The translations under genes and the position numbers were made by a program. Below, in pieces: positions 26,732 through 31,220 of a stretch of 33,493 nucleotides of DNA. Each line of letters starts with the position of its first letter. Within the stretch, counting starts at the first letter, position 1. The notes under the pieces are model-generated. The model was given only the letters and a program-made list of their open reading frames with translations, did no database searches and had not been told where the DNA came from. This DNA comes from Fulvivirga kasyanovii (GTDB lineage: Bacteria > Bacteroidota > Bacteroidia > Cytophagales > Cyclobacteriaceae): positions 878 through 34,370 of the forward strand of contig NZ_SMLW01000678.1 of the NCBI RefSeq assembly GCF_009711405.1, in the 5' to 3' direction.

Positions 26732-29401
26732 ATGCACGGTATGAGGTTAATTTCTGTCTTGAGTATATGCTTCCTGCTGTCCGGGTTTTCGGAACAGGTT
26801 TCTGCCGAATCTCCTTTTCAGCAGAGAGTGGAAGCGCTTATCAGGCAGGATAGTCTCGATGCATTTATATATACTTACCTGGATGAATTTCTAAAAGATC
26901 CGGTTTATGAGCGGCTTTATTTGTTTGATGAGGCCGGTGAGAAACAGTGGCGTGAACCAAGGAGTGCGCAGGAGTACCTTGCCAGCACCATATTCCTGTG
27001 CAACAAAGGATATTATAACCTGAAATTCAGTCAGGTAGACGAGGCAGTGAGTGCTTATGAAAGTGCCTGGGGGTATGATCAGCAATTTGATTTTAGGGAC
27101 TTCGATATTATAGAATACTGTCTGAAACCGCTGGGCAATGCCTACAGCATGCTTGGCGACTACACCAGTGCTGAGAACACCATCAAGAGTTACCTCCTGG
27201 AGGCTCAGAAAAGAGGGTTAAAAGACCAGCAAACCTCCGCTTTGATCAATCTCTCTATTGTATATCATGACACAGGCAAAAATAAGGAAGCTATAGAAGT
27301 GTTAAACACTGCGCAGGAAAGCAACTCCGGAAGCTCTGGCCTGATCTACTCCAACCTGGCAAAAAATCACCTGACTTTAGGTGAGTACGATATGGCAGAC
27401 CGATATGCCAGGAGGGCAATGGCTCTTTTTGAAAAGGCAGGGGCAGATCAGTCAGGTTACTTGAGCAATATCTATAGCATACTTTCATCGGTCAACCTCA
27501 AAGCTCGTGATACTGTTGAGGCATTGAATTTTTTGCGTAAAGCCAGAAGCCTGATGGAAACGGGCTCCACGGGTAAGTCGCGGGATTATGCCAAGGTGAT
27601 TGTTCAGGAGGCCAATGTGCTGTATGCGATGGGCAATAGTGCGGCTTCAATAAACATTTACCGTCAGGCCCTTCAGCAGCTCATTCCGCAATTAGGAGAG
27701 AAGCAATTGCTGCCTTCGGAAGATATGCTGTACGCAGAAAATACTTTGAAAGAGGTATTTGACGGTATGGCGGGTGCATTCGTGAGCCTGGATTCCCTGG
27801 ACCAGGCGATCGACTGCTATAAAAAAAGTTTTAGTGTAGAGGAGCGGCTGAAAGAAACTTACAGCTATGACGAGTCCAAATATTTGCAGCAAGGTGAGAA
27901 CAGGTGGCGTGCTGAGCAGGTGCTTGACCTCTGTTACAGGCTGTTTTCCTTGAGCAAGGACATTCACTATGTGAGGGAAGCCTTCGCGGTGGCGGAAAGA
28001 ACAAAGTCAGTCGCGCTCAGGGACAAGTTGTATAACCGGATGACCTGGGAAAAATTTGCGGGAGATTCAGTATTGGCAGGTAGAAGAAAGCTGGCCCGGC
28101 ACAAGGCGCAGGTTGAAGCAGCACTGGTACAGGAGCAGCTCAAAGGTAGGAATGCTAACCTGGGCACCATTGAGCACCTGATGGACAGGAAGAACAAGCT
28201 CACCATGGATATGAAGGGACTTGAAAAAAGCATGCCCAGGCTAACCAGGCAAAGTCATCGGGAAATTGACTATGATAGTTTGCAGCAAAAGCTAAAGAAC
28301 AATCAGCTTACTATGGTAGAGTATTTCTTTGGAGCAGAAGCTTTGTATGCTTTTGTGCTTAATGGTTCCTCCATCGCCATGTATAGAAATAGCCGGATTG
28401 CGGAGGTGAGGGAGAATATTGTACAGTTCAGTGCATTATTTACCGATGAAGTAAAAATTAATGCCGCCCCGGAGGTTTTCGCGGGGTTATCGCAAAAGCT
28501 AATGGGTATGTTGTTTCCTGGCAAGGTGAAAAATACCTTGCTGATAGTTCCTGATGGACTGCTCAATTTTGTGCCCTTTGAAGCACTGCTTACTGCCAAG
28601 CCATCTTCTGCAGACTATAGCCAATGGCCGTGGCTGATCAATAGTAATCCCGTGTTTTACCAATATTCCGGAGCCCTTTATTTGCACGATTTTGGGCAAG
28701 GCAGGTTTGCGGATGATAAGGTGCTGGGCTTTTTTCCACGTTTTGCTGACTCTGAACGTTATTTAAAATATTCTAAAGACGAACTTGAGGGAATCCGTAA
28801 GCATTTTGATGGAAATTTTCTGAGCGATGAAAAGGCAACTAAACAGGCGTTTTTTAATCATGCTTCTGATTACTCCATCATCCACCTTTCTACCCATGCC
28901 AAACCCGGAGCACTTTATGAGCCGCCTTCCGTAGCCTTTGTGGATTCCGCCTTGCATTTGCCTGAAGTACTTGGGCTTAATTTGCATACTCAACTTTTGG
29001 TGCTGGGTGCCTGCGAAACGGGTATTGGTAAGCTATATAAAGGCGAAGGGCCTTTAAGTCTGGCTAGCGGCTTTTCGCACGCCGGTGTTAAAAATATTGT
29101 GCTATCGTTATGGAAGGTCAACGACCTCTCCACCTCCAGGCTGATGACTGATTTTTACAAATACTATGAAGAGCAGCCACAGGCACACATGGCGTTGCAT
29201 CGAGCCAAACTAGCTTATTTGCAGCATGATGAGATAGCCATGGATAAAAAATCGCCCTACTATTGGGCATCGTTTGTATACTATGGGCAAAGTGAAACAA
29301 AAGATGCCATCCAGGCATCAGGGTATGGTATGCATATGTTTTTTGTAGCAGTTGCCCTTATCGCGATGGCGTTATACTTATATTACCGGCGACGGAGATG
29401 A
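26732..29401 (+). CDS. TPR-CHAT caspase-like protease with signal peptide and C-terminal anchor
   Basis: 889 residues. Signal peptide about 1-25, then TPR repeats at about 75-400 ('LGNAYSMLGDYTSAENTIKSYL', 'YSNLAKNHLTLGEYDMADRYARRAMALF' and further units). A coiled-coil linker spans about 440-520 and the CHAT domain about 525-850. The caspase-like His722 is in 'IIHLSTHAKPG' and Cys761 in 'LVLGACETGIGKLYKGEG', so the catalytic dyad is intact. Residues 867-884 form a C-terminal TM helix ending RRRR, which puts the TPR and protease domains in the periplasm. ATG directly follows the PKD-gene stop. Known CHAT proteases act in conflict and death pathways; this extracytoplasmic form next to an ECF/anti-sigma pair may instead serve signalling. 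Confidence 0.9.
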   Translation: MHGMRLISVLSICFLLSGFSEQVSAESPFQQRVEALIRQDSLDAFIYTYLDEFLKDPVYERLYLFDEAGEKQWREPRSAQEYLASTIFLCNKGYYNLKFSQVDEAVSAYESAWGYDQQFDFRDFDIIEYCLKPLGNAYSMLGDYTSAENTIKSYLLEAQKRGLKDQQTSALINLSIVYHDTGKNKEAIEVLNTAQESNSGSSGLIYSNLAKNHLTLGEYDMADRYARRAMALFEKAGADQSGYLSNIYSILSSVNLKARDTVEALNFLRKARSLMETGSTGKSRDYAKVIVQEANVLYAMGNSAASINIYRQALQQLIPQLGEKQLLPSEDMLYAENTLKEVFDGMAGAFVSLDSLDQAIDCYKKSFSVEERLKETYSYDESKYLQQGENRWRAEQVLDLCYRLFSLSKDIHYVREAFAVAERTKSVALRDKLYNRMTWEKFAGDSVLAGRRKLARHKAQVEAALVQEQLKGRNANLGTIEHLMDRKNKLTMDMKGLEKSMPRLTRQSHREIDYDSLQQKLKNNQLTMVEYFFGAEALYAFVLNGSSIAMYRNSRIAEVRENIVQFSALFTDEVKINAAPEVFAGLSQKLMGMLFPGKVKNTLLIVPDGLLNFVPFEALLTAKPSSADYSQWPWLINSNPVFYQYSGALYLHDFGQGRFADDKVLGFFPRFADSERYLKYSKDELEGIRKHFDGNFLSDEKATKQAFFNHASDYSIIHLSTHAKPGALYEPPSVAFVDSALHLPEVLGLNLHTQLLVLGACETGIGKLYKGEGPLSLASGFSHAGVKNIVLSLWKVNDLSTSRLMTDFYKYYEEQPQAHMALHRAKLAYLQHDEIAMDKKSPYYWASFVYYGQSETKDAIQASGYGMHMFFVAVALIAMALYLYYRRRR

Positions 29402-29441: not shown

Positions 29442-29449
29442 TAATATTG
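29442..29449 (+). promoter_or_regulatory. Candidate tRNA promoter -7 box
   Basis: TAATATTG, one mismatch to TAnnTTTG, is followed by C and lies 12 bases before the first partial tRNA-Pro copy at 29462. It is a plausible original promoter of the tRNA locus. No well-spaced -33 TTG is obvious. Confidence 0.3.
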
Positions 29450-29460
29450 CGATCCGGTTT

Positions 29461-29472
29461 TCGGGATGTGGC
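29461..29472 (+). repeat. Partial copy 1 of the tRNA-Pro 5' end
   Basis: TCGGGATGTGGC is identical to the base before the tRNA plus its first 11 bases (intact copy at 29780-29791). It then diverges. Confidence 0.7.
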
Positions 29473-29483
29473 ATATGGTCACA

Positions 29484-29529
29484 TATAAATCGGGATGTGG
29501 CGTCCCGACGCGTCGGGATTAGCGCACCA
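29484..29529 (+). repeat. Partial copy 2 of the tRNA-Pro 5' half, interrupted by a palindrome
   Basis: TATAAAT plus CGGGATGTGGCG (29484-29502) and TTAGCGCACCA (29519-29529) are identical to 29774-29792 and 29801-29811 at the intact tRNA. In place of the intact CAGTCCGG D-loop part stands the 16-base perfect palindrome TCCCGACGCGTCGGGA (29503-29518). The final A is the first base of the GIY-YIG start codon. Copies 2 and 3 are direct repeats flanking the nuclease gene. Confidence 0.75.
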
Positions 29530-29804
29530 TGTATTATGTATATATAATTGAATCGCAAATTGACAAGAGCTGGTACTATGGCTACAGTCAGAATGTTGAG
29601 AAAAGATTAGGGTATCATAATAATGGAGAAAGTCGTTACACTAAGCGTAAAACGCCATGGCAATTAATTTTTTGCAGAAGTTTTGAAAGTAAAACTGAAG
29701 CATTGAAATTTGAAAAATATTTAAAAGACTCACGAAATAAAGAATACATAAAAAGAGCATTTAGTGAGTACTTTATAAATCGGGATGTGGCGCAGTCCGG
29801 TTAG
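29529..29804 (+). CDS. GIY-YIG nuclease embedded in a duplicated tRNA-Pro
   Basis: 91 residues, the small stand-alone GIY-YIG type. 'YYVYIIES' (GIY strand, 2-9), 'WYYGYSQNVEKRLGYHN' with YYG (16-18) and catalytic-type Arg26, Tyr29 and His30, then 'TPWQLIFCRSFESKTEALKFEKYLK' with the metal-binding Glu62. These residues are as expected for an active endonuclease. The ATG is formed at the edge of the partial tRNA copy (CACC-ATG). The last seven codons (R85 to G91) and the TAG stop are read from the first 24 bases of the intact tRNA, in the D-loop. The gene is AT-rich compared with the chromosomal genes upstream. It is probably a homing-type mobile element that uses the tRNA gene as its target. 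Confidence 0.88.
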   Translation: MYYVYIIESQIDKSWYYGYSQNVEKRLGYHNNGESRYTKRKTPWQLIFCRSFESKTEALKFEKYLKDSRNKEYIKRAFSEYFINRDVAQSG

Positions 29805-29855
29805 CGCACCACGTTAGGGACGTGGGGGCCGCTGGTTCGAATCCAGTCATCCCGA
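29781..29855 (+). tRNA. tRNA-Pro, anticodon AGG
   Basis: All arms pair: acceptor CGGGATG/CATCCCG (7 bp), D-stem GCGC/GCGC, anticodon stem CCACG/CGTGG, T-stem GCTGG/CCAGT (one G-T), T-loop TTCGAAT, five-base variable loop, discriminator A. C1-G72, A73 and G35-G36 are the bacterial proline identity set. The anticodon loop is TTAGGGA, hence anticodon AGG (29816-29818). No CCA is encoded. A terminator follows. The first 24 bases overlap the 3' end of the GIY-YIG gene. Confidence 0.93.
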
Positions 29856-29878
29856 CATTTTTAGTTTCATTTAACTTT

Positions 29879-29996: not shown

Positions 29997-31220
29997 ATGA
30001 AAGAATCCTTTTCCTTAAAGTTTGTACTAATACCCCTAAAAGAAAACCCTGAGCAGGGAAAAATTTATATCCGTATCATAGTAAACCGCAAAAAGACTGA
30101 AATAGCCACTGAGCATGTGCTGGAAAATTCAAAATGGGATGCTAGTGCCCAGCGAGGAATCAAAACACCTGCACTCAACGAAGAATTGGTTTACATTGAA
30201 AACAAGATAAGAGAGATAAAACGTCAATTAGTCTACAGTGGTAAACCAATATCAGCCCGAATAATTAAGGATATTTATACCGGGGCATCGAAGACTACCA
30301 GGTACTTAATAGAATATTTTACCGATTATATTAAGTCAATGGAGGCCATGCCCGGTGAATACTCTGAAGATTTAGTACAGCACTACAAGACCACGAAGTA
30401 TCACCTGGAAGATTACCTAAAATCATTAGGGGTCAGTGATATTAAATTAGAGGAGGTAGATTATAAGTTCTTGAGAGGATTTGATCAAAATATGTTATCA
30501 AAAATAAACCCTCAGTATAAACGTCCGATGGCGAGAAATACTGCTAATAAGCAGCATTCAAGGTTTAAGAAGGTTTTGTCTACTGCTGTAAAAGAAGGGT
30601 TAATTTCTGGATTGCCTTATGTTCATTTCCCTTTAAAGAATGAAAAAACATCCAGAGAATTCTTAACAAGTGATGAAATAGAGAGAATAAGGTGTCATGC
30701 TCTGGGTGATAATTTTGGCTTACAAAAGGTAAGAGACATTTTTCTTTTTTCAGTATATACCGGATTACGCTTTTCAGATGCTTTGGCTTTGAAAATGGCG
30801 GACCTTTATATGGATAAAGACGGTACGTGGTGGATTAACAATAAAGCTCAGGAAAAAACCTTAGAAAGATTAAACGTACCTCTTTTAGAGCCTGCAAAGG
30901 AAATAATTGATAGATATGACAATGAAGAGCGTGAGGTAATGGGATATGTTCTTCCACGCTTTACAAATCAAAAAACGAATGCTTATCTAAAGACTATTGC
31001 TGATTTGGTGGGCATTAAAAAGAAATTAACACATCATATTGCAAGGCATACTTTTGCCACAACCATCACATTATCTAATGAGGTTCCCATTGAAGTTGTG
31101 AGTAAGATGCTAGGTCATACAAATTTGAGGACTACTCAGGTGTATGCAAAAATCACAAATGATTATCTGGCAAAACATGCTCAAAGCCTTAATGAAAGGT
31201 TAAAAGTGGAGAAAAAATAG
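29997..31220 (+). CDS. Tyrosine recombinase / site-specific integrase
   Basis: 407 residues, the Bacteroidota phage-integrase type. The N-terminal arm-binding domain, about 1-95 ('FVLIPLKENPEQGKIYIRIIVNRKKTEIAT'), is followed by a SAM-like core-binding domain (about 100-210). The catalytic domain has Arg258 in 'TGLRFSDAL', a Lys in the 'WWINNKAQEKT' beta-hairpin, 'HHIARHTF' (Arg350), 'LGHTNLRTTQVYAK' and nucleophile Tyr383. The active-site set is complete. It begins 142 bases after the 3' end of tRNA-Pro, a standard position for an island integrated at a tRNA 3' end. No second copy of the tRNA 3' end was found before the window ends, so the island border is unseen. Confidence 0.92.
   Translation: MKESFSLKFVLIPLKENPEQGKIYIRIIVNRKKTEIATEHVLENSKWDASAQRGIKTPALNEELVYIENKIREIKRQLVYSGKPISARIIKDIYTGASKTTRYLIEYFTDYIKSMEAMPGEYSEDLVQHYKTTKYHLEDYLKSLGVSDIKLEEVDYKFLRGFDQNMLSKINPQYKRPMARNTANKQHSRFKKVLSTAVKEGLISGLPYVHFPLKNEKTSREFLTSDEIERIRCHALGDNFGLQKVRDIFLFSVYTGLRFSDALALKMADLYMDKDGTWWINNKAQEKTLERLNVPLLEPAKEIIDRYDNEEREVMGYVLPRFTNQKTNAYLKTIADLVGIKKKLTHHIARHTFATTITLSNEVPIEVVSKMLGHTNLRTTQVYAKITNDYLAKHAQSLNERLKVEKK

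Follow-up and report, generated by a model that had tools for sequence, protein, structure and literature searches.

The tRNA-Pro(agg) gene in the window, which is the whole 33,493-nucleotide stretch of the Fulvivirga kasyanovii genome analysed here, is preceded by a short inserted unit that combines a partial, palindrome-bearing copy of the tRNA with a gene for a GIY-YIG nuclease. We consider it fairly probable that this unit represents a homing-like element, minimal and free-standing, with specificity for a single tRNA gene, a reading in which cutting and mobility are deduced from sequence comparison. The best reading of its relatives is a family of isotype-specific homing-like elements that would work like the phage nuclease SegB, but as single-domain, chromosomal versions with pseudo-tRNA arms. 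A sequence-only reading of the locus had reached part of this interpretation; it had noted neither the palindrome nor the tandem arrays, nor the specificity for isotypes.

Table 1. Coordinates of the features at the tRNA-Pro locus (positions in the window)
Feature	Positions	Strand	Remarks
889-aa flanking gene, synteny anchor	26732..29401	+	CHAT/TPR-like by eye
TAATATTG, native promoter-like element of the tRNA-Pro gene, at present on the 5′ side of the insert	29442..29449	+	role as promoter presumed
Extra 29-bp partial duplication containing the tRNA-Pro stub TCGGGATGTGGC (29461-29472)	29461..29489	+	repeat family D2; not in G014
TATAAAT leader copy before the pseudo-tRNA	29484..29490	+	19-nt exact repeat with 29774-29792
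Pseudo-tRNA-Pro 5′ half, tRNA positions 1-12 and 21-31 around the palindrome	29491..29531	+	
Perfect 16-bp palindrome TCCCGACGCGTCGGGA in place of tRNA positions 13-20	29503..29518	.	
GIY-YIG nuclease gene, 91 aa, ATG start, single domain	29529..29804	+	
Second TATAAAT leader copy	29774..29780	+	
Gene/tRNA overlap, last seven codons and TAG stop within the tRNA	29781..29804	+	as in L241, L277, L289
Intact tRNA-Pro(agg)	29781..29856	+	ARAGORN; Rfam tRNA 63.2 bits

Much of the anatomy first proposed for the locus was recovered (Table 1). The 91-codon GIY-YIG frame does lie between tRNA-Pro repeats and ahead of an intact tRNA-Pro(agg), and both of the shared blocks that had been described were found, one (29484-29502 and 29774-29792) exact over 19 nt with the TATAAAT leader included, the other (29519-29532 and 29801-29814) 93% identical. 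The predicted use of tRNA sequence to end the gene was likewise borne out, with 24 nt of the frame overlapping the intact tRNA, the TAG stop in the D-loop and seven residues encoded by the tRNA. The left copy, however, is not the plain tRNA 5′ half that had been assumed, since 8 nt of the D-loop region (positions 13-20) have been swapped for the palindrome TCCCGACGCGTCGGGA, an exact 16-mer that occurs twice in this genome; beyond it, tRNA positions 21-31 run into the ATG of the nuclease gene. Among open reading frames of at least 40 aa, only the 91-codon frame lies wholly within 29491-29804, leaving no integrase in the unit, and an Rfam search at the gathering threshold of the locus sequence spanning the element found the tRNA only and no host intron around the gene such as a group I intron homing endonuclease would have. 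The upstream stretch bearing TAATATTG, a motif that we take to be a promoter, leads directly into an intact tRNA-Pro in one genome of the comparison (G008) and partly so in another (G001). At this locus the gene follows this promoter, which is native to the tRNA and has been displaced from it, and its frame ends inside the tRNA, so that a shared transcript of gene and tRNA is probable. Directly downstream of the same tRNA-Pro lies a tyrosine integrase gene (29997-31220), and the native 3′ flank of the tRNA, still present in G014 and G008, has been displaced. The 3′ end of this tRNA-Pro has thus been used by a separate integrative element, whose far end (attR) was looked for in the rest of contig C443 and not found.

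Comparison of 14 tRNA-Pro(agg) loci from the same genus, in which a profile search for GIY-YIG frames covered flanks of up to 1.5 kb on each side, places the gene at two, that of the present genome (G000) and that of G014. The other 12 loci carry no GIY-YIG frame within these flanks, and the outcome that the sequence-only reading had named as contrary to it, occupation of all relatives, was therefore not observed. In G008 the site is empty and syntenic, with a counterpart of the 889-aa upstream gene (66.7% identity over 460 aa) beside an intact tRNA-Pro. G014, whose copy of the upstream gene is 87.1% identical over 373 aa, has a pseudo-tRNA exactly at the native tRNA start, followed by the nuclease gene and an intact tRNA, the insertion amounting to 290 bp. 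As the unit is missing from the syntenic G008 locus and present in G014, it is not a chance arrangement, and the sequences show a real insertion event that spared the tRNA, as had been suspected. Two marks of homing endonucleases are accordingly found here, namely occupied (G000, G014) and empty, syntenic (G008) alleles of one site, and a location at tRNA genes. The original estimate of a unit of about 290 bases with no other gene holds for G014, and the insertion at the present locus measures 319 bp, the additional 29 bp being 29461-29489. The stub TCGGGATGTGGC within this stretch is real, but its interpretation as a repeated event did not survive, since G014 is without the 29-bp stretch and the stub is thus a later lineage-specific duplication rather than the trace of an older full insertion.

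The two nuclease genes differ at 2 of 276 positions, and that of G014 has an in-frame stop, which by its sequence marks decay of the element. The G000 and G014 copies are 99.2% identical over 252 nt, above all 243 outside segments compared, yet the best of these reaches 98.8%, so that the near-identity is suggestive only and was not accepted as demonstrating a recent transfer. The present genome has a second element, at a tRNA-Asn (C443:38-268), that is missing from the tRNA-Asn of G014; a neighbouring stretch (L004:488-680) looks like a dispersed repeat, and many of 45 matches in G014 fall on it. A further relative in this genome (L002; G000:C413:1154-1381) lies 321 nt downstream of the tmRNA gene, and the interval between them holds repeats resembling the tmRNA 3′ end and terminator.

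The 91-aa protein belongs to the GIY-YIG superfamily (Pfam match, E=1.7e-18), and its catalytic-type residues Y5, Y16, G18, R26 and E62 are invariant in the 26 rows of one alignment as well as in a 29-row set. AlphaFold predicts one well-modelled GIY-YIG domain of about 80 residues (mean pLDDT 91.4), with residues 87-91, part of the tRNA-encoded tail, below 50 and not confidently placed. By profile the nearest solved relatives are UPF0213 BH0048 (E=3.5e-18), EF2693 (5.6e-16), SLX1 (1.9e-8) and I-TevI (0.0043), and Foldseek concurs that UPF0213 and SLX1 are closest in fold. The records for UPF0213 (COG2827) and SLX1, although these are the closest solved proteins in sequence and fold, are silent on tRNA linkage or pseudo-tRNAs; SLX1 works with SLX4. 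An NCBIfam search with the protein gave no match. A phage origin was considered and rejected, as a PHROG search matched 0 families and tblastn against phages returned 12 records with a best identity of 36-40%. Membership in the SegB family also fails, with 14% probability over 21 columns, 18.5 bits and no C-terminal region beyond the GIY-YIG domain.

Relatives of this protein are abundant. Matches occur in 33 of 58 related genomes, 91 in total, and a draw across the phylum gave a match at E 1e-8 or better in 158 of 247 genomes, with up to 22 per genome among the genomes searched. We pooled 226 matches from 85 genomes, 63 genera and 16 families, comprising a relatives set of 95 (all 91 and their neighbours) and a phylum set of 131 (30 loci and 60 regions), the latter being the best-scoring among the matches listed. 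An intact tRNA or tmRNA lies within 1.2 kb of 179 of the 226, a rate flattered by the high-scoring matches and by a profile built from tRNA-linked proteins, and the nearest one is on the strand of the gene in 179 of 179 cases; 191 of 226 have intact or partial tRNA or tmRNA sequence within 450 bp. For a random site, the expectation with 450 bp and one strand is about 0.3-0.6%, as computed from the 33-62 tRNA matches in each of six one-contig genomes. In the relatives set, 62 matches have an intact tRNA or tmRNA within 1.2 kb and 72 have tRNA sequence of any kind within 450 bp; the corresponding counts in the phylum set are 117 and 119. Of the 226, 144 have partial tRNA copies on the strand of the gene and 2 have them on the opposite strand. 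Opposite-strand tRNAs appear in two contexts (G032:C155), where they are not the nearest. Since the 226 matches include tandem copies, they were also thinned to one per genome and isotype, with an intact tRNA or tmRNA within 1.2 kb at 127 of 169 and none opposite. The best 80 of 460 candidates, taken as a separate named set that shares a few loci with the 226, gave an intact same-strand tRNA or tmRNA within 450 bp in 62 of 80, or 68 of 80 counting partial copies (29 and 32 of 35 in its Bacteroidota part), and in none of the 80 is the nearest tRNA on the other strand. These best 80 span Bacteroidota, Patescibacteria groups, Omnitrophota, Zixiibacteriota, Fidelibacterota, Lentisphaerota and one Myxococcota.

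The elements come in two mirror forms, with the nearest intact tRNA upstream of the gene in 139 cases and downstream in 40. Where it is upstream, the pseudo-tRNA is usually downstream and keeps the tRNA 3′ end in 44 of 52 cases; where it is downstream, as in the window, the upstream pseudo-tRNA keeps the 5′ end in 17 of 17. Among the 41 cases in which an intact tRNA follows the gene, the frame ends within that tRNA in 18. The use of a tRNA 5′ half had been presented as opposite to the habit of integrases, a contrast that does not extend to the family because its commoner form carries a copy of the tRNA 3′ end downstream of the gene. C-termini encoded by tRNA 5′ ends do recur in other bacteria, as a search suggested for them would have it: three loci in other Bacteroidota (L241, L277, L289) have exactly the form seen here, a partial tRNA-Pro with a D-loop palindrome and then a gene whose tail is read from tRNA-Pro to the same TAG.

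The protein clades track the tRNA isotype. On a tree of 130 rows from 77 genomes, one per genome and isotype after removal of identical or unlabelled rows and those below 60 aa, the isotype changes 38 times, as compared with 88-102 times in 300 shuffles; for 92 of the 130 rows the closest protein from a different genus is of the same isotype (9.2% expected). Cross-family pairs of at least 60% identity agree in isotype in 109 of 113 cases, compared with 348 of 4169 pairs at 40-50% identity, the pairs not being independent. Most Val, Ala and Lys rows have their nearest relative at another isotype, and retargeting therefore happens. Of 11 isotype mismatches in the partial-copy search, 7 were Met against a library entry mislabelled SeC, which was then relabelled Met; ARAGORN had named a palindrome-bearing Met pseudo-tRNA 'SeC'. 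Taken alone, the isotype lock could also be produced by vertical inheritance at one locus. Met-type proteins are 75.7% identical across classes and 74-76% identical within one genus, and these identities suggest horizontal spread of the Met-type elements.

Same-strand copies lie within 1.5 kb of each other in 98 of 226 cases, mostly at a spacing of 306-468 bp and with 0 opposite-strand neighbours. Such tandem arrays are what one would see if an ordinary UPF0213-like gene were repeatedly caught in tandem duplications of recombination-prone tRNA genes without driving them, and weak sequence specificity is expected of a single-domain nuclease. We hold this passive origin to be quite unlikely, as it leaves unexplained the specificity of clades for isotypes across families, the strict strand relationship (0 of 179 opposite) and the constant position of the palindrome per isotype (the same site in 10 of 14 Asp copies). 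The same layout, isotype-locked, strictly same-strand and with tandem RNA-like repeats beside a nuclease gene, also recalls a tRNA-coupled host or addiction module, in which the GIY-YIG enzyme would act on tRNA and the pseudo-tRNA would serve as a decoy or RNA antitoxin; type III toxin-antitoxin pairs have tandem RNA repeats. It seems very unlikely that this is the case here, given that the closest relatives are DNA nucleases, that many partial copies are half tRNAs, and that presence within the genus is patchy, with at least one clearly broken copy (G014).

In the partial copies, a tRNA loop or arm is usually replaced by a palindrome. Two colinear blocks of tRNA are present in 93 distinct pseudo-tRNAs, and the stretch that they enclose was compared with shuffles; a stem of at least 6 is present in 73 and p is at most 0.05 in 69, while 20 have a shorter stem and 24 exceed that p value. 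Between the two blocks, 15 of the 93 have lost 8 nt of the tRNA, 10 have lost 17 nt, which equals an anticodon arm in length, and 21 have lost none of it. Both the site of the palindrome and the sequence of its arms follow the isotype. In 10 of 14 Asp copies the interruption falls at 50-51/59-60, each of these 10 beginning TCCCG, and Met copies carry TCCGCC in 9 of 10 and GGCGGA in 10 of 10. Across 67 arms, similarity between genera within an isotype is 0.68 as against 0.50, a difference reached by 0 of 1000 shuffles. An abundant genomic repeat was rejected as the source of the palindromes, as TCCCGAN{2,10}TCGGGA occurs 14 times per strand in the present genome and its reversed control 10 times, with no strong excess. 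Two loci (L042 in G015:C44 and L012 in G037:C39) hold tandem palindromic pseudo-tRNA units without a nuclease gene, adjoining an intact tRNA.

Three roles would fit the palindrome, as a means of abolishing the cut site in the arm, as a dyad bound by a dimer or as a hairpin substrate; its conservation is not predicted by plain homing and counts against a homing reading. Alternatively, the element might be hairpin-directed and loosely REPIN/RAYT-like, with a structure-selective, Slx1/UPF0213-like nuclease acting on palindromic pseudo-tRNAs as hairpins or cruciforms; it would then be the pseudo-tRNA that moves and the nuclease that mobilises it, and the solo tandem arrays in G015 and G037 would be non-autonomous copies. 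We retain this possibility because profile and fold are closest to UPF0213 and SLX1, I-TevI being far weaker, and it would account for the frequent stems, the likeness of arms within an isotype across genera and replaced stretches of exactly 17 or 8 nt. It is nevertheless unlikely, since such palindromes are not abundant in the present genome, the units seen, within the neighbourhoods of GIY-YIG genes, are all at cognate tRNAs, and the tree shows few insertions between different isotypes. REPIN/RAYT systems link a nuclease gene, for an HUH enzyme, to palindromes, whereas the present element has a GIY-YIG enzyme, and its palindrome lies inside a pseudo-tRNA.

The nearest working model is phage SegB, although the element itself is not a SegB. 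SegB is a free-standing GIY-YIG homing endonuclease of T-even phages that shares with the element the GIY-YIG start motif and the place at tRNA genes, T4 segB sitting between tRNA-Arg and tRNA-Ile. According to the available text of PMC13096335, it cuts within tRNA genes at sites including RAWTSGAAC and drives tandem tRNA-segB amplification by recombination, with no preference for particular isotypes reported there. By our own reading, RAWTSGAAC is complementary to the T-loop, and in Asp pseudo-tRNAs it is the T-loop that is replaced. SegB, at 221 aa as against about 80-95 aa in the element, shows hardly any sequence similarity to it, is phage-borne and without isotype preference (as far as the available text of PMC13096335 goes) where the element clades are isotype-locked, and has no palindromic pseudo-tRNAs mentioned in that text.

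On the homing-like reading that we prefer, the insertion, the intact tRNA left behind, the arrays, the decay and the isotype lock are what the sequences themselves show, and isotype-specific cutting, repair against an occupied copy and spread between species would be the steps that connect them. The nuclease would cut empty copies of its cognate tRNA gene, and the break would be repaired against an occupied copy, with the tRNA sequence flanking the nuclease gene serving as homology, such that the gene is copied in and an intact tRNA is left. Since each arm consists of tRNA sequence, even distant species with only the tRNA in common could be invaded. The palindrome probably removes the cut site from the pseudo-tRNA arm, or forms a hairpin or dyad recognised by the nuclease, or both, and recombination between the tRNA repeats would generate tandem arrays. 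Counting against homing, the host's intact tRNA would still contain the target, and the element is without the extra DNA-binding region of SegB and hardly SegB-like. The isotype lock makes the question of specificity, that is, whether each clade cuts only its own tRNA gene, directly testable.

Tyrosine-integrase elements at tRNA genes likewise use the tRNA as a site, spare it and leave a partial copy, and the available text of PMC9897764 describes tRNA fragments left by integrative elements. The present unit differs from them in its size of about 290 bp without an integrase, in its use of both 5′ and 3′ tRNA parts and in its palindromic partial copies. In the full-text literature searched, subscription journals and preprints being outside its scope, no description of a tRNA-linked minimal GIY-YIG family was found. 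It is conceivable, if somewhat doubtful, that these units form a new class of minimal selfish element, in which a single-domain GIY-YIG nuclease of about 85 residues and a palindrome-substituted pseudo-tRNA make up about 300-450 bp, each lineage is locked to one tRNA or tmRNA gene, and bacterial phyla are crossed as the tRNA supplies homology arms and the hairpin self-immunity or a recognition signal. If so, they would be among the smallest known mobile elements, present at tRNA genes across Bacteroidota and several other phyla, and conserved tRNA sequence would have become portable homology arms. Their pseudo-tRNAs could mislead annotation, as in the 'SeC' call, and their nucleases would offer a ready panel of single-domain enzymes with naturally different tRNA targets.

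Of the 226 pooled matches, 35 are without any tRNA, whether intact or partial, within 450 bp; 7 of these have less than 450 nt of sequence on one side, and the rest are partly another subfamily. Ribosomal or other RNA genes as alternative neighbours were rejected, as 32 loci without an ARAGORN match, run through Rfam together with three loci whose RNA was known, yielded a single additional tRNA, truncated by the end of its contig. Five loci (L039, L067, L038, L070, L082) carry another GIY-YIG subfamily with the C-terminus KKEALI or similar and no tRNA, their genes being flanked, by eye, by dispersed palindromic repeats such as CCTGAGCTTGTCGAAGG. At three others (L044, L049, L054), GIY-YIG genes without a tRNA lie, again by eye, between short CCCGTAGGA- or CCTGTGGAAT-like repeats located at the end of other genes.
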